Shown here piece by piece: positions 1 to 53,384 of a stretch of 53,384 nucleotides of DNA. The position numbers and the translations under genes are program-made. The stretch covers positions 1 through 53,384 of IMG/VR virus record IMGVR_UViG_3300030104_001707; one strand, given 5' to 3'. This stretch comes from a virus. The notes below the pieces were generated by a model. That model worked only from the letters and a program-made list of their open reading frames with translations. It did no database searches and was not told where the DNA came from. Each line of letters begins with the position of its first letter. The first letter of the stretch is position 1.

Positions 1-32
1 TTTTTTTGGCTCGGCAGATATGGGGTTTTGAT
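1..32. repeat. left copy of 32-bp terminal repeat
   Basis: The first 32 bases are identical to the last 32 bases (53353-53384). They hold seven T residues, the core GGCTCGGCAGATA and then TGGGGTTTTGAT. This is either an assembly overlap showing a circular map or a short piece of a real terminal repeat. The right end carries an extra 21-bp unit of the same core, so the assembler may have broken the genome inside a longer tandem array. Confidence 0.9.
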
Positions 33-53
33 AGGAACGCAGTGACATGATAG

Positions 54-83
54 ATGATAGGTCGCGTAGCGACACCATGATAG
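54..83. repeat. hairpin flanked by direct ATGATAG repeats (left copy)
   Basis: ATGATAG at 54-60 and again at 77-83 flank a short palindrome, GTCGC-GTA-GCGAC (61-73), followed by ACC. Further GATAG words lie at 30-34, 49-53 and 91-95. A second element with the same plan but a different stem sequence lies at 2346-2373. The two elements bracket the leftward gene cassette at 168-2197. Function is unknown; iteron, operator or recombination site are all possible. Confidence 0.7.
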
Positions 84-123
84 AAATTTTGATAGGATTT
101 ATCTAAAATTTTATCTATATTTT

Positions 124-162
124 AAATAAAAAATGGCTGAACCAAAAAATGATCCAGCCATT
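124..162 (-). terminator. Rho-independent terminator ending the left cassette
   Basis: Read leftward, AATGGCTG (162-155) pairs perfectly with CAGCCATT (139-132). The stem can extend inward by four weaker pairs. It is followed at once by a T-rich run (131-121). It begins 6 bases after the stop codon of the last left-cassette gene. It should stop leftward transcription before it reaches the promoter at 53.3 kb across the circular junction. Confidence 0.85.
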
Positions 163-167
163 CTAAT

Positions 168-374
168 TTAACTAAGTTTTATTTTGTTTTCTATTGTCTG
201 ATGTTGTTTAACTATATCTTCAAAAGGTAGACTTTCACAAATTTTTACAAGGCGATTTATCTGGCTGTCCGATAAATCCAATAGCGGTAAATGGTCTTTA
301 TCATTTCCACTATCTTTAACAATTTGTGATAAACCAGAGCGAATGTTTTGTAATCTTTGTTTTGAAATGTCCAT
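168..374 (-). CDS. hypothetical protein, 68 aa
   Basis: I do not recognise this protein. It is a small, soluble-looking, mostly helical polypeptide without cysteines or membrane segments. A GGGAG ribosome binding site lies about 8 bases before the ATG at 374, which supports the start. It is the last gene of the leftward cassette, and a strong terminator follows within 10 bases. About 100 bases of AT-rich DNA separate it from the tiny membrane peptide gene upstream. Its position suggests an accessory early protein, but nothing shows its role. Confidence 0.6.
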   Translation of the reverse strand: MDISKQRLQNIRSGLSQIVKDSGNDKDHLPLLDLSDSQINRLVKICESLPFEDIVKQHQTIENKIKLS

Positions 375-477
375 GGGACAAGCTCCCTTCTTAGAGCGTT
401 TGTGAATAAATACTTTTATATATAAAACGATTGAACTGCTAAAGTTATTGCATTTAATTTATTTTTTTTCACCTCCT

Positions 478-564
478 TTAGTCGCATAATTTGTTGAGAA
501 TATAAATAAACAATCCATAAATAAATAAAGCCAATGCAAGGAAAACAATTTTTTCAAGTAGCAT
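478..564 (-). CDS. tiny single-pass membrane peptide, 28 aa
   Basis: An open frame starts at an ATG (564-562) lying inside the last codons of the gp88-like gene (start-stop overlap of 11 bases) and ends at TAA (480-478). The product is MLLEKIVFLALALFIYGLF followed by IYILNKLCD. It is almost wholly one hydrophobic helix of about 20 residues with a short polar tail. The overlap with the upstream stop suggests translational coupling. Such peptides are frequent in phage early regions, but the short length makes a chance frame possible. A strong Shine-Dalgarno-like AAAGGAGGTGA follows its stop codon. Confidence 0.45.
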   Translation of the reverse strand: MLLEKIVFLALALFIYGLFIYILNKLCD

Positions 565-1285
565 GTGTTGTCCCTTCTATGTTCACAATAAATTTAGATA
601 TTGACGGATCAATAGCATTGCCTACGGATTTATATTTTAATCCTACTATTTTATTTTTATGAAGTAAATTATCAATGTCGGATGCATCACCATCAACAAC
701 TTGTTTCCCCATAAAATGAGATGGGATACCGCCATAAAATACAACTGACATCGGAACATCAGTTTTTAATGCTTTACGCACTGACTGTTGATATTTTGGC
801 GCATTGGAATAGGAAAACATCAGTTCATAGTTGTCTGGCGTTTTGCCTAGTCGTTTTGCTATTTTGGTATAATCATAAAAATTAATATTAGGAAAAGATT
901 GTGGAATTGATCCATTGGTTTTTAATTCCCATTGAATATCGGAAATAGTATTTAAACGAACGTATGCTTTAACATTTTGTTTTTTGCATAGTTTTTCAAA
1001 ATTATGTAATTCATTTTTCAATTGAATTATAAAGTTTTCTTTATCATTTAAATAGAAATCAGTTTTGTTAATTCTGGCCTTTTTAACTGATTTAAAAACT
1101 TTAGCCATACCAGAGCCATTTAAACAAGGTGCTTTGCATTCTGCTATATCTTGCATAGGGCAGATTGAGGTATTAGTTGGATTTAATGACATTGAAGCCA
1201 TACGGATCTTGATCTCTGTTTTATTGGTCGCGTTTTGTGTTTTCTTAATCTTTGTGTTGCTGTTACTTGTGTCTAAAAGTTTCAT
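554..1285 (-). CDS. mycobacteriophage gp88-like protein (DUF7227-like)
   Basis: The product is 243 residues when started at the ATG at 1285 (MKLLDTSNSNTKIKK). This start is preceded by AGGATT, and the N-terminal KLL-NTKI pattern is where this family normally begins; an upstream in-frame start at 1324 would run into the terminator hairpin. Seen features are a cysteine cluster (CPMQDIAECKAPCLN), a conserved ARINKTDFYL segment, a VRLNTISDIQWE segment and FYDYTKIAKR. I recognise these as the pattern of the widespread phage family called gene product 88 in mycobacteriophages. Its biochemical function is unknown. The clustered cysteines suggest metal binding. It is the largest gene of the left cassette. 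Confidence 0.7.
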   Translation of the reverse strand: MKLLDTSNSNTKIKKTQNATNKTEIKIRMASMSLNPTNTSICPMQDIAECKAPCLNGSGMAKVFKSVKKARINKTDFYLNDKENFIIQLKNELHNFEKLCKKQNVKAYVRLNTISDIQWELKTNGSIPQSFPNINFYDYTKIAKRLGKTPDNYELMFSYSNAPKYQQSVRKALKTDVPMSVVFYGGIPSHFMGKQVVDGDASDIDNLLHKNKIVGLKYKSVGNAIDPSISKFIVNIEGTTHAT

Positions 1286-1304
1286 GGTTTTAATCCTATA
1301 AGTT

Positions 1305-1342
1305 AAAGAAAAGAATAGGGCCAAGTTTCTCAGGCTCGGCCC
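1305..1342 (-). terminator. intercistronic terminator/attenuator (leftward)
   Basis: Read leftward, GGGCCGAG pairs with CTTGGCCC (8 bp with one G-T pair, loop of 9) between 1342 and 1318. It is followed by TATTCTTTTCTTT. It lies between the 152-aa gene and the gp88-like gene, so it would reduce read-through into the latter. Confidence 0.65.
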
Positions 1343-1357
1343 TTGTTAGAGTTTACA

Positions 1358-1816
1358 CTAGGAAGCTAATCTTATTTTGTGTCCCTTGTCTAAAACTTTG
1401 TTTCTCAATTCACGACTAAATATTTCAGTTTGTTTAAAGTTTAACGTCAAAACTTTTTTAATTTTGTTAGCTTGTCTTAATCTTGAACGAGTACGGTTAT
1501 ATTGCTTCATTTTCTCGACTGTAACTGAAGCCGTTTTTAACTGCTGTTTCATATCAAGATAATTGAAGAAATTACCATTTAAGAAATCAAACAATTTTAA
1601 AAAGATATTCCGTTTCAAATCGGCCCGTGCTAAATACCCAAAACCGTTATTTGTTACGAATGATCCACAACCCTCATTGGAATAATAGCTATTAATTATA
1701 CAGTCGTATTTACGAACATGGAATAAATACGCATGGTTCCAAAAAACTACTGCTTTGTTTTCCCAATTGTTTTTGTGATGCTGTTTAACGTTTGATCCGA
1801 AAATATAATTACACAT
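1358..1816 (-). CDS. hypothetical protein, 152 aa
   Basis: I do not recognise the family. The first 70 residues are rich in aromatic residues, asparagine, histidine and cysteine (for example CNYIFGSNVKQHHKNN, then YYSNEGCGSF). The C-terminal half is basic and helical (MKQYNRTRSRLRQANKIKK) and could bind nucleic acid. The ATG at 1816 follows an AGGAAAAAGG ribosome binding site. A strong hairpin lies just upstream (1842-1867) and a terminator-like hairpin just downstream, so the gene is separated from its neighbours at the RNA level. Its function is unknown. Confidence 0.55.
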   Translation of the reverse strand: MCNYIFGSNVKQHHKNNWENKAVVFWNHAYLFHVRKYDCIINSYYSNEGCGSFVTNNGFGYLARADLKRNIFLKLFDFLNGNFFNYLDMKQQLKTASVTVEKMKQYNRTRSRLRQANKIKKVLTLNFKQTEIFSRELRNKVLDKGHKIRLAS

Positions 1817-1841
1817 TTTATTTTTCCTTTTTCCTAGTGTT

Positions 1842-1867
1842 GGGCCAGAACGGAATTGCTCTGGCCC
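1842..1867 (-). other. strong intercistronic hairpin GGGCCAGA/TCTGGCCC
   Basis: A perfect 8-bp inverted repeat (1842-1849 with 1860-1867) with a 10-base loop lies between two leftward genes. No T-run follows in either direction. Read leftward, the ribosome binding site of the next gene comes directly after it. It may be an RNA processing or stability element rather than a terminator. Its GGGCC arm is shared with the terminator at 1318-1342. Confidence 0.6.
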
Positions 1868-1876
1868 GATTAATAG

Positions 1877-2197
1877 TTATTCTGATATTGCCTTGATTTT
1901 GCTGATGATCTGTCTACTGCAACTCTTGATAACGCTATCAAGATTTAAATGTAACTTTCTATCGCCTATGCATAAACCCTCCTCTGTTGTCTGATTGATT
2001 AAAATATAGTTTCTGTTATTCCATGCAAAATGAGTTTCTTCACAATCCTTCCATTCTGGATTAGCGATTAATTCAAAATCCCCCTCCCCTAAATGAGCAA
2101 GAAGTGCGGTAATTTTTTTGGCGTAGTTGTCGGCATCCACTTTTGAATTAAATTTTGGAAACTCAATGGTAAAATCATTTTTGCTTGTGTGTGACAT
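1877..2197 (-). CDS. hypothetical protein, 106 aa
   Basis: I do not recognise this protein. It is a soluble alpha/beta-looking polypeptide (MSHTSKNDFTIEFPKFNS at the start) with a tryptophan-containing middle (NPEWKDCEETHFAWNN) and two later cysteines. The ATG at 2197 follows AGGAAAGGTG, a good ribosome binding site. The leader word CACTAGGAAA also precedes the next gene in the cassette. It is the first gene of the leftward cassette and so the nearest gene to the operator-like array at 2379-2426. That makes an early regulatory or host-directed role possible but unproven. Confidence 0.55.
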   Translation of the reverse strand: MSHTSKNDFTIEFPKFNSKVDADNYAKKITALLAHLGEGDFELIANPEWKDCEETHFAWNNRNYILINQTTEEGLCIGDRKLHLNLDSVIKSCSRQIISKIKAISE

Positions 2198-2345
2198 TTT
2201 TACAACACCTTTCCTAGTGGTTTCGTTCTCTTATTCTAACATATAAAAATCATAAAAAATAAAGGTTTAATTATAGAAATAATACACGCATCACATATAA
2301 GATACACTATGCAAATGAGAACCCTTCGCAAAAATGATAGGATAT

Positions 2346-2373
2346 ATGATAGGTGCGCAGCACACCATGATAG
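2346..2373. repeat. hairpin flanked by direct ATGATAG repeats (right copy)
   Basis: ATGATAG at 2346-2352 and 2367-2373 flank GTGC-GCA-GCAC (2353-2363) and ACC. A further ATGATAG lies at 2334-2340. The layout is the same as the element at 54-83, but the stem bases differ on both arms, so pairing is kept (GTCGC/GCGAC there, GTGC/GCAC here). That kind of paired change argues for a structure kept by selection. Confidence 0.7.
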
Positions 2374-2378
2374 ATTTT

Positions 2379-2426
2379 GTTCACGTTTTGTTCTCATTAT
2401 GTTCTCTATTAGAACGAAATAGGAAC
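2379..2426. promoter_or_regulatory. 11-bp phased GTTC/GAAC half-site array (putative operator)
   Basis: GTTC occurs at 2379, 2390 and 2401, and its reverse complement GAAC at 2412 and 2423. All steps are exactly 11 bp. The central pair forms the dyad GTTCT-CTATT-AGAAC. All half-sites fall on nearly the same face of the helix. This is the expected form of a cooperative repressor or initiator binding array. Confidence 0.6.
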
Positions 2427-2643
2427 ATATGGGGTACACAAATTTATTTGAGAGGGGATATGCAAAATCCGTGCCAATATAATTGATGCCAACTAGTATC
2501 ATATGAGCGATACCTAGGTGATGCAAGAATCATGCCAAGATTCCTCAACAATAATAGATTAATTTGAATGACATTTAGTTAAAATTGTATCTACTTGGGG
2601 TATGCGGTAGCCACGGCAGCGCTATACGTTATATATACATGAC

Positions 2644-2673
2644 CATATAAAATTCTAGAAAATAGGTTGTCAA
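2644..2673 (-). promoter_or_regulatory. possible leftward promoter of the left cassette
   Basis: On the minus strand TTGACA (2673-2668) is a perfect -35 box. It is followed after 18 bases by TATATG (2649-2644), a weaker -10 box, or after 17 bases by TTATAT. The start would be near 2637, leaving a leader of about 440 bases before the gene at 2197. The operator-like array would lie inside that leader. Confidence 0.4.
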
Positions 2674-2754
2674 CCCCTTGATAATAAATAATAATATATT
2701 TAGTACGAAAATCGGGGATATGGGTAATATCTGTACTAATATATAAAAAATAAC

Positions 2755-2783
2755 TTGACAAACGACATAATATATGCTATAAT
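2755..2783 (+). promoter_or_regulatory. sigma70 promoter P1 of the rightward late operon
   Basis: TTGACA (2755-2760), a 17-base spacer and TATAAT (2778-2783) match the bacterial consensus perfectly. Transcription would start near 2790. The repeat TAATATCTGTACTA (2725-2738) lies just upstream and recurs near the second promoter. Confidence 0.85.
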
Positions 2784-2931
2784 CTATTTCTTAGTCGAGC
2801 ATCAGCGAGACTATATACAGAGTATAATAATATATACTGTTAATTAGTATGTAAACAGGTATAATATCCGTACTATTTAATATAATACCGTATATATGTA
2901 AATATTATTTGTAAATATATGTATTTTTTAC

Positions 2932-2961
2932 TTGACAAGTGTTATGTACTTATGTTATAAT
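2932..2961 (+). promoter_or_regulatory. sigma70 promoter P2 of the rightward late operon
   Basis: TTGACA (2932-2937), an 18-base spacer and TATAAT (2956-2961). This is the second of two tandem promoters before the late genes, with a start near 2968. The leader then runs about 135 bases and contains a terminator-like hairpin before the first gene. Confidence 0.8.
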
Positions 2962-3051
2962 ACAATTCTCGTAAAAACTGCGTATATATGATCTTTATCT
3001 TGAGGGGTATGGGTTATTATACGGCCTTCTAGGGTCCAGTGATTGCATTAT

Positions 3052-3092
3052 AAGGGGTTGTAGGTTAGCAGTTACCTCCCCCTTAATTTTTT
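3052..3092 (+). terminator. attenuator-like terminator in the late leader
   Basis: AAGGGG (3052-3057) pairs with CCCCTT (3079-3084), and AGGT (3062-3065) pairs with ACCT (3074-3077) inside it. The hairpin is followed by AA and six T. The ribosome binding site and ATG of the first late gene come only 11 bases later. As drawn it would end most transcripts from both upstream promoters unless transcription is antiterminated, or it may be a leaky attenuator. Confidence 0.7.
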
Positions 3093-3103
3093 GAGGTGTA
3101 ATT

Positions 3104-3382
3104 ATGGCAGAAAAGAACTCTTGGGATAGTTTAAGTAAAAAAGAAAAAGAAGAATTTGGTGATAAAGCTACCTATGAAGCATTTCTTAGAGCTTTAGGAA
3201 CAATGAAATCAGAAAGTGAAGAACAAAGAAGTATGGGTGTAACTCCTGTACCAAAACCTAAACTACCAAAACCTAAACCCAAGAAAAAAGGTATAAATAT
3301 AAAAGAAGGTGGACTTGTACTAAAAGTAACAAAGAAAGGTCCATTATATAAAGGTAAGAAAAGTGGCAACAAGAAGACGTAA
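3104..3382 (+). CDS. small basic hypothetical protein, 92 aa
   Basis: I do not recognise the family. The N-terminal 45 residues are charged and probably helical (MAEKNSWDSLSKKEKEEFGD). The middle is proline/lysine-rich (PKPKLPKPKPKKKG). The C-terminal part has KEGGLVLKVTKKGPLYKGK, a KGG-type motif seen in several other small proteins of this genome. It is the first gene after the two late promoters and the attenuator-like hairpin, with GAGGTG before the ATG. It overlaps the next gene by 20 bases. A DNA-binding or packaging-linked role is possible given its charge and position, but this is inference. Confidence 0.6.
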   Translation: MAEKNSWDSLSKKEKEEFGDKATYEAFLRALGTMKSESEEQRSMGVTPVPKPKLPKPKPKKKGINIKEGGLVLKVTKKGPLYKGKKSGNKKT

Positions 3383-45165: not shown

Positions 45166-45194
45166 CTTATAACACATTAATTTTGATTTGTCAA
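45166..45194 (-). promoter_or_regulatory. leftward sigma70 promoter between polA and the DNA-binding gene
   Basis: On the minus strand TTGACA (45194-45189) is followed by a 17-base spacer and TATAAG (45171-45166), five of six matches. The -35 box overlaps the polymerase stop codon (the TGA inside TTGACA). Transcription would begin near 45159, just before the gene at 45139. It would boost the nuclease, nucleotide and reductase genes downstream. Confidence 0.8.
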
Positions 45195-47269
45195 GCACAA
45201 TCTTCTTGTTCCATCCAATTTTTTCCAATCGACATTTCGACATCAAGAGGAATAAATTTTTCTAAACCAAATCTTTTTTCTGCTTCATCTTGCGCTTTAA
45301 TTAAACAAATAGGAGCTATCTGCTTTACTTCCTCAATCTCATCTGGATGACAATCTACTATAACAGAATCGTGTACCGTGTTGATAACTAAGCTATTTAG
45401 TCCACGTTCCTTTAGCTGTTTATGTAGTAGTATGACACCAAGAGGAACGATCTCAGCAGTGGCTACAGACTGAACTGGATAGTTTACGATTTGAGTTTTA
45501 GAAGATGCGTTACCCTGTTTAGTACGATAGACATTCGGAAATGCAAACTGTCTACCTGTAGCAGTTGTAACAACCTCATTCTCAATCGCTTCAGACTGTA
45601 AAATTTTGTGCCAGTTGAACACTCCTGCATACTTTCCAAAGAACTCCTGAAAGTATACTCGTTGTGCAAATGTACCCTGCGATCCTCCGTATAGAGGTCT
45701 GAAAGTAGATGCTTTGGCAGCACCACGTTCTGTTGGTTCTCCATTATCTGTAAGAACCTTTGCCGTATATGCATGGACATCGAAGCCCTCCCTTACTTCT
45801 TGTTTTATTCTCTCATCCTTGGCAAGGATACCTGCAACCCTAAACTCTAATTGAGAATAATCTACTTCAAGTAATTCCCCACCTTCAAACCTACTGACAA
45901 ACGCCTTGCGAACAGGGAACAGTTTACCTTTAGGCATATTTTGTAGGTTGGGATTACTACTGCTAAGTCTACCTGTAGCTGTTATACATTGGTTAAAGTT
46001 AGCGTGAAGTATAGTATCACCTTCTCGTATACCTTTTTTAATACCTTCAATAAACGAACTACGATATGTATCTATAGCAGACAATCGTATCAAAGAGTTA
46101 AGAAACTTCTTGACTTCTGGATTTTTTTGCGTCTTTTCCAAATCAACAAGAGTATTCTTATCAGTCTTAAAACCTCCTGCTGATGCTAATGCAACAATCG
46201 GGGTCACTTGAAGTCCTGCCCTTTCTGGCAACTCTTTGTATTCAAAACCTGTACCGTTACAGTGATCACACTTAGTCATATTTTTAAACTTAGTGCCATC
46301 CTTTTTAATCTTATAGTATCCACCTCTGCCAAAACAGTGTGAACATTTCATTGCCTGAGTTTTATATGCAGGAGTAAAGCAGTCCTCTACGCATTTAACA
46401 AAACCTGAGTCCATCATCTTTGGTCTGCGCTTTGGTTTACCTCTAGCATCTACTCCTATGTTCATGTATTCACGCCAAGATTTTTTATTATTTAACTTGT
46501 ATGAATAAATAACCTGAGACAGTTGCTCTGGACTACTTAGATTGATTGGTGTATCTCCTACAAGTTTTTTAACTGTAGTATTTAAATAGTGTTGCAACTC
46601 TCCTTGTTCTATCTCATACTCTTGGTCAACCTTGTTAAGAACATCTATATCAATAGCCATACCTGCTCTCTCTATGTCAGTAAGCACATCACAGAACTCA
46701 CACATAAGATCACGAATAGCTACGAGTGAGTGGTTTGAGGCTTTACTAAACCTCTCTTGTTGCTTCTGAAATACTTCAGCAGTTGCAAGAACATCATTAG
46801 TTAAATAAGTTTCTTGATCAAACAAAGACATATCACTGTAGTTCAAACCTTTGTTGAGTGTATCTCCAAGAGAACTTTCTTTACGAGTAACTTTATATTT
46901 CTCAGCTAGACCATCTAACGAAAGTTTATTTCGTAAGCCTTTGCTAAGTACATACTCATTAATCATAGTATCAATAATCTTAACATCACATTCTATTCCT
47001 ACCTCACGCAACCAAGCTACATCAAACTTAGCATTATGGGCTACGATATACTTAGCACCTTTTATCTCCTCTTCAAAATCATCGAGATCAAAATTATTAG
47101 ATGATTTGTTTTTTATTTGTACAGTTAAACCACCTATTTTAGATCCATCCAAGTTTCTTTTTAAGTAACCTATGGCTACTAACTCGTTGTATTTATTATA
47201 TGGTGAAGGATCTTTTCTATCTCCCTTCAAATCAACTTCCAAGTCTACAACTAATACATAATCTTCCAT
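45191..47269 (-). CDS. polA: family A DNA polymerase with internal DnaJ-type zinc module
   Basis: The product is the 692-residue replicative polymerase. The 3'-5' exonuclease has D9 and E11 (VVDLEVD), D83 (HNAKFD) and D159 (YLTNDV). A zinc-finger insertion lies at about 305-345, with CSHCFGRGG and CDHCNGTG (C309, C312, C334, C337), the CxxCxGxG pattern of DnaJ. Polymerase motif A is EVDYSQLE (D470). Motif B is R515 to Y527-G528, with F523 at the position of E. coli Phe762. Motif C is VHDSV (D634). No 5'-3' exonuclease domain is present. The DnaJ-type insert is a known trait of HMO-2011-like marine phages. It starts seven bases after the SleB-type gene ends. Confidence 0.95.
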   Translation of the reverse strand: MEDYVLVVDLEVDLKGDRKDPSPYNKYNELVAIGYLKRNLDGSKIGGLTVQIKNKSSNNFDLDDFEEEIKGAKYIVAHNAKFDVAWLREVGIECDVKIIDTMINEYVLSKGLRNKLSLDGLAEKYKVTRKESSLGDTLNKGLNYSDMSLFDQETYLTNDVLATAEVFQKQQERFSKASNHSLVAIRDLMCEFCDVLTDIERAGMAIDIDVLNKVDQEYEIEQGELQHYLNTTVKKLVGDTPINLSSPEQLSQVIYSYKLNNKKSWREYMNIGVDARGKPKRRPKMMDSGFVKCVEDCFTPAYKTQAMKCSHCFGRGGYYKIKKDGTKFKNMTKCDHCNGTGFEYKELPERAGLQVTPIVALASAGGFKTDKNTLVDLEKTQKNPEVKKFLNSLIRLSAIDTYRSSFIEGIKKGIREGDTILHANFNQCITATGRLSSSNPNLQNMPKGKLFPVRKAFVSRFEGGELLEVDYSQLEFRVAGILAKDERIKQEVREGFDVHAYTAKVLTDNGEPTERGAAKASTFRPLYGGSQGTFAQRVYFQEFFGKYAGVFNWHKILQSEAIENEVVTTATGRQFAFPNVYRTKQGNASSKTQIVNYPVQSVATAEIVPLGVILLHKQLKERGLNSLVINTVHDSVIVDCHPDEIEEVKQIAPICLIKAQDEAEKRFGLEKFIPLDVEMSIGKNWMEQEDCA

Positions 47270-49751: not shown

Positions 49752-50508
49752 TTAATACTCCTTTCGGGTTTTCTTTTGGATCTACTTCTAATAATTTTAC
49801 ATTTGCCCTAGTAAACTGTGCTATCCTATTCTTCATACGAATAGCTTTAGATGACGCATCTTTATCAAGACACACTATAACATAGGGATACTTTATCACA
49901 ATGTCAAGTACCTCATTAGATAAATTTGTACCCAACAATGCTAAACCTATACCGTGTTGCGAAACTGCAACAGCAGATGCAGAATCCTCAACGACATAAC
50001 AAGTTTCTCCTTCACCACAAATAAAAGGCAAACCTGAGTTAGAATATCTATGCCATTTAGCACCATACTTAGATAACGATCTGCCTACAGCATCAATAAT
50101 CTTAGGCGTTATGGTTGGCAGACTTCCTTCATTTATTTTAACGTCAAAGATTGGAAACACTGCCCTGTCAAGTTTTACATCGTGATACAGTTGAACTTTA
50201 TCTGTATTAATATTATTTTCATTACAGTATCTTGTCATCTTCTTAGGCAGATATACAGAGAAGTGATCTGGTATTTTGAACTCCTGTTTTTTCTGACTCG
50301 GCAGTATGATAGATTTTTCTCTGATGTACCTGCTAGAAGACAGCATCCTTTTCTTTCCAGACACATTGCATCCAGCTTTATAACAGTTATACAAAACTAT
50401 GCCATCAGTTCTGGTTGCAGTAAATGTTTTAACACCACCACAACTAGGACAATTAATCCTAATCTTCTGATACTCCATTAGATCGTCAAACTCTGGTAAA
50501 TCAAACAT
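49744..50508 (-). CDS. DNA primase (zinc ribbon plus Toprim)
   Basis: The 254-residue protein has an N-terminal zinc ribbon (INCPSCGGVKTFT and YNCYKAGCNVSG; C20, C23, C42, C47) and a Toprim domain. The Toprim domain has CYVVEDSASAVAVS (E174) and VIVCLDKDASS (D215, D217), the metal-binding acidic residues. This is the compact phage primase that makes RNA primers for the family A polymerase. No helicase domain is attached; the DnaB-like helicase is a separate gene downstream. Zinc ribbon and Toprim are closely spaced, as in related marine podoviruses. Confidence 0.92.
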   Translation of the reverse strand: MFDLPEFDDLMEYQKIRINCPSCGGVKTFTATRTDGIVLYNCYKAGCNVSGKKRMLSSSRYIREKSIILPSQKKQEFKIPDHFSVYLPKKMTRYCNENNINTDKVQLYHDVKLDRAVFPIFDVKINEGSLPTITPKIIDAVGRSLSKYGAKWHRYSNSGLPFICGEGETCYVVEDSASAVAVSQHGIGLALLGTNLSNEVLDIVIKYPYVIVCLDKDASSKAIRMKNRIAQFTRANVKLLEVDPKENPKGVLND

Positions 50509-51942: not shown

Positions 51943-52539
51943 TTAGTACTTAGGGTATTCATTGTTTATATCATAGCGTAAAGCATTACGCAATATCTTT
52001 TTTTCTTTTTTTGTACCAATAAAATAAACGTAACGATGTTTAGCACTACGATTAATTCTATTAGTTCTGTCTCCTAGATGATGTCTACTGTGTTTACCAT
52101 CCTTACCAGCCATGTCAGTACGCTTTTTAGTCGTACCAGTAAAGAGCCAGTTGGTAGCTTGATACACTATACCTGCATGATCTTGGGCAGTGTCGGCATA
52201 CGATACAACTACTTTAGGAGTGGGCAACATCTTGAGTGAGCGAGAAACTAAGAACGATGCTTCGTTTGGCAGATTATCTCTGAGTACCAATCTGTTTAGT
52301 TCGATAACATCTGATCTATGTTCCTCACCACAAATACCCTTGCATAAAGACGGTGATGCTGGACTGCCATAAGATACCATGCCCACCATTTCATCGTGAC
52401 GATACAGGCCATAAGCATAGCTAATACTAGGCATACGTTTAGCATAGTGGATATTGAGTATCCAGTGTTTAGTTTCAGAATGTAGACATGGACGTATTTC
52501 GTATTCGCTTTGCATTTGGTTATTCCATCCGATAAACAT
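51943..52539 (-). CDS. Mom-like DNA modification protein
   Basis: The 198-residue protein has YGLYRHDEMVGMVSYGSPAS, ICGEEHRSDVIELNRLVL, VVSYADTAQDHAGIVYQA and NWLFTGTTKKRTD, with a basic C-terminus. The pattern is that of the GNAT-related Mom family, named after phage Mu Mom, which changes adenines in DNA to a carbamoylmethyl form and blocks restriction. No Com-like regulator was seen nearby. In this phage it would protect its DNA in hosts with restriction systems. AAGGAG precedes the ATG. The match is by motif memory, not by search. Confidence 0.75.
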   Translation of the reverse strand: MFIGWNNQMQSEYEIRPCLHSETKHWILNIHYAKRMPSISYAYGLYRHDEMVGMVSYGSPASPSLCKGICGEEHRSDVIELNRLVLRDNLPNEASFLVSRSLKMLPTPKVVVSYADTAQDHAGIVYQATNWLFTGTTKKRTDMAGKDGKHSRHHLGDRTNRINRSAKHRYVYFIGTKKEKKILRNALRYDINNEYPKY

Positions 52540-52765: not shown

Positions 52766-53254
52766 TTATATCCAATCTGGTTGTGGTCTATTTGTCCAAT
52801 TAAGTATGTGTGCCTTATCTGATTTGTAGTATGCACGATAAGCATCTACATAGTCAAGTCTTTTATGCTCATCAGGCATACATTGTGGTGGTGTAGTATG
52901 TAGTCTGTAGTCCTCATCAAAGTCATCATAGAACATAAAGTCTGCAATGTTCTTGAGTATGGCAGTAGACTTGTGATTTTTACCATATCTGTATTTATAC
53001 TCAGCACCTATATGAAGACCGTGTAGTAATGCCCATGACATATTAGCATCATTCTCTCTGACCCATACAGTCATAGGATGGTTCTTGTACGCTGGTTTAT
53101 AAATACGATTAGTAATATCCTCATCAGGAAAACACCATTCATGTATGGCGGTACTACACATTTGAGCAGTCTCCAACACCATTTTAACAACGTGTTTATC
53201 ACACAGTTGTTCGGCAGATTTGAACGGACAACGATCAATAAAGAATATGTTCAT
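52766..53254 (-). CDS. pyrimidine dimer DNA glycosylase-like protein
   Basis: The 162-residue protein opens MNIFFIDRCPFKSAEQL and CDKHVVKMVLETAQM, followed by KPAYKNHPMTVWVRENDANM and a helical C-terminal part. I know this family as widespread in phages, often annotated as pyrimidine-dimer glycosylase (Pyr_excise) or left hypothetical. The biochemical function is not proven. As a first gene after a strong leftward promoter it is made early. Repair of UV damage would suit a marine phage. The ATG at 53254 follows GGAGAA. Confidence 0.6.
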   Translation of the reverse strand: MNIFFIDRCPFKSAEQLCDKHVVKMVLETAQMCSTAIHEWCFPDEDITNRIYKPAYKNHPMTVWVRENDANMSWALLHGLHIGAEYKYRYGKNHKSTAILKNIADFMFYDDFDEDYRLHTTPPQCMPDEHKRLDYVDAYRAYYKSDKAHILNWTNRPQPDWI

Positions 53255-53290: not shown

Positions 53291-53319
53291 ATAATAACAC
53301 AAATAATACATACTGTAAA
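53291..53319 (-). promoter_or_regulatory. leftward sigma70 promoter of the replication operon
   Basis: On the minus strand TTTACA (53319-53314), a 17-base spacer and TATTAT (53296-53291). Each box is one base off consensus. The start would be near 53284, 30 bases before the gene at 53254. The 21-bp repeats lie just upstream of the -35 box, where an activator could bind. Confidence 0.75.
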
Positions 53320-53330
53320 TAGTTTTTATA

Positions 53331-53372
53331 TTTTTTTTGGCTCGGCAGATATTTTTTTTGGCTCGGCAGATA
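53331..53372. repeat. two tandem 21-bp repeats, T8-GGCTCGGCAGATA
   Basis: Two exact copies (53331-53351 and 53352-53372) of eight T residues followed by GGCTCGGCAGATA. A further copy with seven T opens the window at position 1. The true number of units in the genome is unknown, since an assembler would collapse a longer array. The repeats lie upstream of the leftward replication promoter and next to the ATGATAG hairpins. Confidence 0.9.
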
Positions 53373-53384
53373 TGGGGTTTTGAT
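53353..53384. repeat. right copy of 32-bp terminal repeat
   Basis: The last 32 bases equal the first 32. The repeat covers 20 of the 21 bases of the second tandem unit plus TGGGGTTTTGAT. It supports a closed circular or terminally redundant map. Confidence 0.9.

Follow-up and report, generated by a model that had tools for sequence, protein, structure and literature searches.

The window, that is, the whole stretch of 53,384 nucleotides analysed here, belongs to an uncultured HMO-2011-type marine podovirus and forms a 53,352-bp circle when joined through its 32-bp terminal repeat (Table 1), which places position 1 inside an intergenic region and array B, described below, not at a genome end but between a leftward gene cassette and a leftward replication operon. 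The HMO-2011-type assignment follows from related portal, helicase, and capsid modules in the genome, the portal being 58–65% identical to those of HMO-2011 and CRP phages and the helicase 31–40%. A marker of the HMO-2011 type is the partial DnaJ domain of the DNA polymerase, which contains two CXXCXGXG motifs (PMC9038755), and both motifs (CSHCFGRG and CDHCNGTG) are present in the DNA polymerase encoded at 45191–47269 of the window. Phages of this type form a widespread, dominant group of marine viruses (PMC9038755), and a literature search for gene regulation in these phages found nothing describing it. The early operon also contains a gene for a Mom-family DNA-modification protein (51943–52539, minus strand).

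The leftward cassette of the window lies between two short noncoding arrays. Array A precedes the first cassette gene (start at 2197), within the divergent region, and array B is between the cassette terminator (164–130) and the promoter of the replication operon (53319–53291). Both arrays are built from the heptamer (C)TATCAT, equivalent to ATGATAG on the plus strand, and both are oriented so that CTATCAT is read along leftward transcription. The order of elements at site B is conserved and consists of the array, a TCTGCCGAG motif, an A/T tract, the TTTACA-17-TATTAT promoter, and the start codon; at the site of the tandem repeats, TCTGCC(GAG) occurs one to three times in relatives. The TCTGCCGAG motif with an A tract is found again at 50284–50312, and a further CTATCAT-ACTGCCGAG match occurs inside the primase coding sequence. 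At site A, a simple scan predicted no good promoter between the array of the window and its gene, and a leftward promoter-like site is present at 2855–2827.

Table 1. Positions of the arrays and neighboring features in the window, and records of the array-bearing relatives.
Feature	Position or record	Strand	Remarks
Direct terminal repeat, 32 bp	1–32 and 53353–53384		Contig circular or circularly permuted
Array B	28–96	−	Five heptamers, (C)TATCA(T/A) in leftward reading (ATGATAG/TTGATAG on plus strand), with hairpins between; upstream of leftward replication operon
Decayed hairpin GGAAC-GCA-GTGAC	34–46	+	3/5 pairs; intact GGAAC-GNA-GTTCC in L210, L223, and L290
Hairpin GTCGC-GTA-GCGAC	61–73	+	Purine-loop strand is the plus strand, template for leftward genes
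Intrinsic-terminator-like hairpin	130–164	−	Ends cassette, just before array B
Leftward cassette	168–2197	−	Genes for 106 aa (1877–2197), 152 aa (1358–1816), GP88 family (554–1285), and 68 aa (168–374)
Array A	2334–2373	−	Three heptamers and one hairpin, upstream of first cassette gene
Hairpin GTGC-GCA-GCAC	2353–2363	+	Site A; GTCGC-GC(A)A-GCGAC at equivalent place in relatives
162-aa protein (Pyr_excise Pfam/phrog_624)	52766–53254	−	First gene of leftward operon downstream of array B
Sigma70-type promoter TTTACA-17-TATTAT with TG	53291–53319	−	Conserved in L146 and L142; upstream of 162-aa gene
Two tandem 21-bp repeats	53328–53369	−	TCTGCCGAGCC then A tract; between array B and promoter
Array-bearing relative L142/L001	IMGVR 3300020477_000297
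Array-bearing relative L146/L002	IMGVR 3300020472_000496
Array-bearing relative L210	IMGVR 3300030376_005042
Array-bearing relative L223	IMGVR 3300046752_000125
Array-bearing relative L290	IMGVR 3300034190_001469
Array-bearing relative L269	IMGVR 3300030108_004652

The initial annotation had described two ATGATAG-flanked hairpin elements bracketing the cassette and a third, degenerate unit. Both elements were confirmed (ATGATAG-GTCGC-GTA-GCGAC-ACC-ATGATAG at 54–83 and ATGATAG-GTGC-GCA-GCAC-ACC-ATGATAG at 2346–2373), and the degenerate unit is real, its segment at 34–46 being the decayed counterpart of an intact GGAAC-GCA-GTTCC in relatives. The bracketing is present as described, but each element is part of a longer array, with further heptamers at 28–34, 47–53, 89–95, and 2334–2340. 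ATGATAG is not enriched genome-wide (10 copies found, 11.9 expected), and six of the 10 copies fall within the two array clusters. The window genome contains two GC-rich hairpins with an identical 7-mer on both sides within 4 nt, while dinucleotide shuffles (n = 200) average 0.1 of them per genome and contain at most 1, and none of the 200 has the same 7-mer flanking hairpins twice. Similarly, TGATAG triples within 60 nt occur four times in the genome and not at all in 200 shuffles. The folding energy of the hairpins is not distinctive on its own (z from −1.4 to +0.1), and support for them is comparative; folding energy was dropped as proof owing to these weak z-scores and to the near-equal energies that DNA parameters give for both strands.

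Searches by protein and by pattern identified six further contigs with arrays at corresponding places (Table 1). An array is found at every locus whose GP88 shares 73% or more identity with the query, and no heptamer cluster was detected at loci where it is at most 64% identical, nor an array at the corresponding junctions of the cultured relatives HMO-2011, HTVC033P, CRP-212, and CRP-235. Within these collections, the array is thus confined to one clade. A stringent pattern search of the genome_contigs collection gave no match, and the element has thus not been seen as a host repeat. Placement in relatives is not random, as every close-clade contig has the elements at corresponding sites, but outside this clade the cassette gene GP88 is widespread without them.

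Covariation of the hairpin arms, which had been suggested by the two stems in the window, is supported by the six relatives. Across units, four of the five stem pairs change on both sides and the closing pair is always C-G. For twelve distinct units centred on the loop, with standard pairs in 91.7% of cells, the covariation score was 0.727, compared with 0.171 (SD 0.060) for shuffled units, none of which scored as high (0/500), and at most 0.152 for slid pairings, with the observed score inflated because nearly all twelve units were chosen for forming hairpins. A census of the gaps between heptamers and the loss of a pair at site A are less exposed to this selection bias. A C-TNY-G hairpin occupies 19 of the 20 gaps of 12–20 nt, the exception being the decayed unit in array B of the window, and hairpins are absent from gaps of 10 nt or less (0/17), from gaps of more than 20 nt (0/4), and from three A/T-rich gaps of 11 nt, with the limitation that these counts are not independent events since some gaps are related by descent. 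When each gap is shuffled, a hairpin forms by chance in 1–3% of cases. At site A, where the surroundings are alignable, the leftward sequence GTGC-TGC-GCAC of the window corresponds to GTCGC-T(T)GC-GCGAC in L269 and L142, so that one C:G pair is gone, with one base missing from each arm and the pairing kept. The loops (14 triloops and one GCAA) also follow a rule in all 15 hairpins, with a closing C-G pair, a purine as the first loop base and A as the last on the plus strand of the window, and a free middle; among background triloop hairpins, this rule is met by 4.5% on one strand and 10.9% on the other. The changes on both arms, the gap census, and the loss of a single pair together indicate that the shape of the hairpin is under selection and is read by something, most likely in the control of neighboring genes. 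The element is genuine, clade-specific, noncoding, and conserved in structure; its function is inferred.

The gene content between the arrays differs among relatives, comprising the 106-aa, 152-aa, GP88, and 68-aa genes in the window, the 152-aa, GP88, and 68-aa genes in L142, genes for 84, 149, and 58 aa with GP88 in L210, and GP88 alone in L146. Such variation favors a recombination boundary that lets gene cassettes shuffle, similar to the promoter-stem-loop (PeSL) units of T4, and it bears out the variable content implied by the mobile cassette boundary that the initial annotation had offered as one of three options; the position of the one pair of junctions that can be resolved weakens both. 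The single gain or loss event that can be resolved among the relatives is that of the 106-aa gene, which is present in the window and absent from L142 and L269. Both of its junctions are at CACTAGGAAA leaders, which are ribosome-site repeats preceding the cassette genes (2198–2230 and 1820–1860 in the window and about 7410–7440 in L142), more than 100 bp from the array, and homology resumes at these leaders. Furthermore, L142 has lost array B while keeping the promoter and both flanking genes, and no integrase or transposase was found among the genes tested; a recombination boundary is a very improbable explanation of the arrays. PeSL cassettes of T4 were reportedly described by Arbiol in 2010 and by Comeau in 2014, as cited in PMC4503421. 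The arrays resemble them as a repeated noncoding regulatory unit beside transcription units of varying gene content, but a T4-type PeSL unites an early promoter and a stem-loop terminator, whereas the present hairpins precede the promoter, most of them without a T tract and those of the window with none, and the one resolved gene junction lies away from the array.

Our preferred reading, which we hold tentatively and at a little less than an even chance, is that the two arrays are cis-regulatory and act on leftward transcription, each from a place upstream of one of the leftward units. In all seven genomes or contigs, the arrays are upstream of a leftward gene and read in its direction, with L146 having its array directly upstream of GP88; they are always in one orientation and come after a terminator where one is visible, and given this consistent placement a regulatory array is the simplest account. 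The paired operator is the best supported of the three options originally offered. Against regulation, the phage genes tested included no recognisable DNA-binding regulator, the spacing of the heptamers has no constant helical phase, and the scan gave no good promoter between array A of the window and its gene. The promoter retained in L142 without array B indicates that this array is not essential there. Mechanistically, the direct CTATCAT heptamers would be bound by a protein of phage or host origin, the hairpins would form in DNA rather than in RNA under negative supercoiling or when single-stranded, extrusion of the hairpins would leave the heptamers on either side roughly one helical turn from each other, and this approach may modulate the downstream sigma70-type promoter. 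The spacing of flanking heptamers minus the hairpin is ∼10 bp in the window and L142 (23 − 13, 21 − 11, and 24 − 14) and, by direct count, roughly 6–13 bp in the other relatives, which suggests that hairpin extrusion brings two heptamers one turn apart.

The loop rule alone leaves the choice between DNA and RNA undecided, since the same rule is purine-N-A in plus-strand DNA and C-UNY-G in leftward RNA, and covariation fits RNA equally well. If the arrays were transcribed leftward, the C-UNY-G hairpins could serve as an antitermination (nut-like) or processing signal in RNA, and the promoter-like site at 2855–2827 could transcribe array A in this direction. Array B, however, sits between the terminator and the conserved promoter and is therefore outside the transcript of that promoter, and a search of 1–3200 against Rfam gave no family at or above the gathering score, leaving an RNA site quite improbable; that array B precedes a promoter which L146 and L142 also have speaks for DNA over RNA. 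A DNA site could also function in the initiation of replication, as in the iteron pair that was the remaining option of the initial annotation, with the heptamers as iterons and the hairpins as single-strand priming or helicase-loading signals of the plus strand. Replication origins are known to contain C(GNA)G mini-hairpins, and the arrays share with the iteron origins of plasmids and phages a series of short direct repeats close to A/T-rich DNA. Two tandem 21-bp repeats with A/T tracts adjoin array B. Cumulative GC skew has a broad, flat minimum from about 52.2 to 2.6 kb that spans the whole array region, and the origin reading is retained because this minimum is broad, although the switch in skew is also explained by gene strand. 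Unlike iteron origins, the present hairpins alternate with the repeats, there are two arrays per genome that are always upstream of leftward genes (in L146 one is immediately before GP88), array B is degraded in L142, and no initiator gene was recognised among the genes tested, which puts a replication-initiation site on the unlikely side.

The early promoters of coliphage N4 are template-strand hairpins read by the virion RNA polymerase (vRNAP); they need a hairpin with a C(GNA)G loop, which has a sheared G:A pair and unusual stability, and tolerate stem changes if pairing is kept (PMC4496689). Supercoiling-driven extrusion of the hairpin is a further mark of these promoters. The arrays are similar to these promoters in their small hairpins with a 3-nt C(GNA)G loop, conserved loop, and replaceable stem (PMC4496689), and the GTA and GCA loops of the window are on the strand that serves as template for the genes downstream, in the right orientation. 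The rule here is nevertheless purine-N-A and not strict GNA, several relatives having ANA or GCAA loops, and the conserved G at the loop centre (−11) is not kept, the window having T or C there and the relatives any of A, C, G, and T. The heptamers, which form an array upstream of sigma70-type promoters, are without counterpart in N4. Comparison of the N4 mini-vRNAP with all frames of the window gave a best E of 1.8, short of inclusion, in a search that could miss a very diverged enzyme; no RNA polymerase family was found among the proteins tested, and the large virion proteins had no RNA polymerase match in PDB or Pfam. With no vRNAP relative found and no conserved loop-centre G, the arrays do not qualify as an N4 promoter system despite the agreement in loop type and strand, and N4-type early promoters are an extremely improbable explanation.

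The regulatory arrays might represent a system of their own kind, which we regard as unlikely in this full form, where a heptamer-binding protein would read sites split by DNA mini-hairpins of the exceptionally stable C(purine-N-A)G type, supercoiling would extrude these hairpins and set the heptamers about one turn apart, and host-polymerase promoters would be switched without a phage RNA polymerase. Arms that covary in noncoding DNA upstream of promoters, around a loop of fixed type, are an uncommon sign that selection acts on shape over sequence, and arrays this short could be tested on a plasmid, which makes it directly approachable to ask whether DNA structure can gate a host-polymerase promoter.

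Other candidates emerged from the pattern searches. The exact pattern TGATAGGT-N3-20-ACCATGATAG had eight matches in viral contigs, none with a hairpin and in a number compatible with chance, and was rejected, as were tandem TGCGGTAACACCGC units in L157, L163, L200, L209, and L220, which alternate with CTATCAT, look coding, and break the loop rule. One CTATCAT-flanked hairpin obeying the C-TNY-G loop rule is found in each of L181 (4893–4940) and L188 (106–160), phages whose proteins show no detectable similarity to the window, and chance or convergence is a possible origin of both. The leader of the rightward operon (2755–3103, plus strand) is 98% identical to that of L142 (6534–6860) though noncoding, compared with 87% for the cassette. 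Two consensus sigma70 promoters lie in this leader, and at its end, just before the first start codon, is a conserved AAGGGG...CCCCCTT hairpin with a T-run; comparison of the leader with L142, L269, L210, L223, and L290 gave a few compensatory pairs; on these sequence features, it is a candidate attenuator or antitermination leader.
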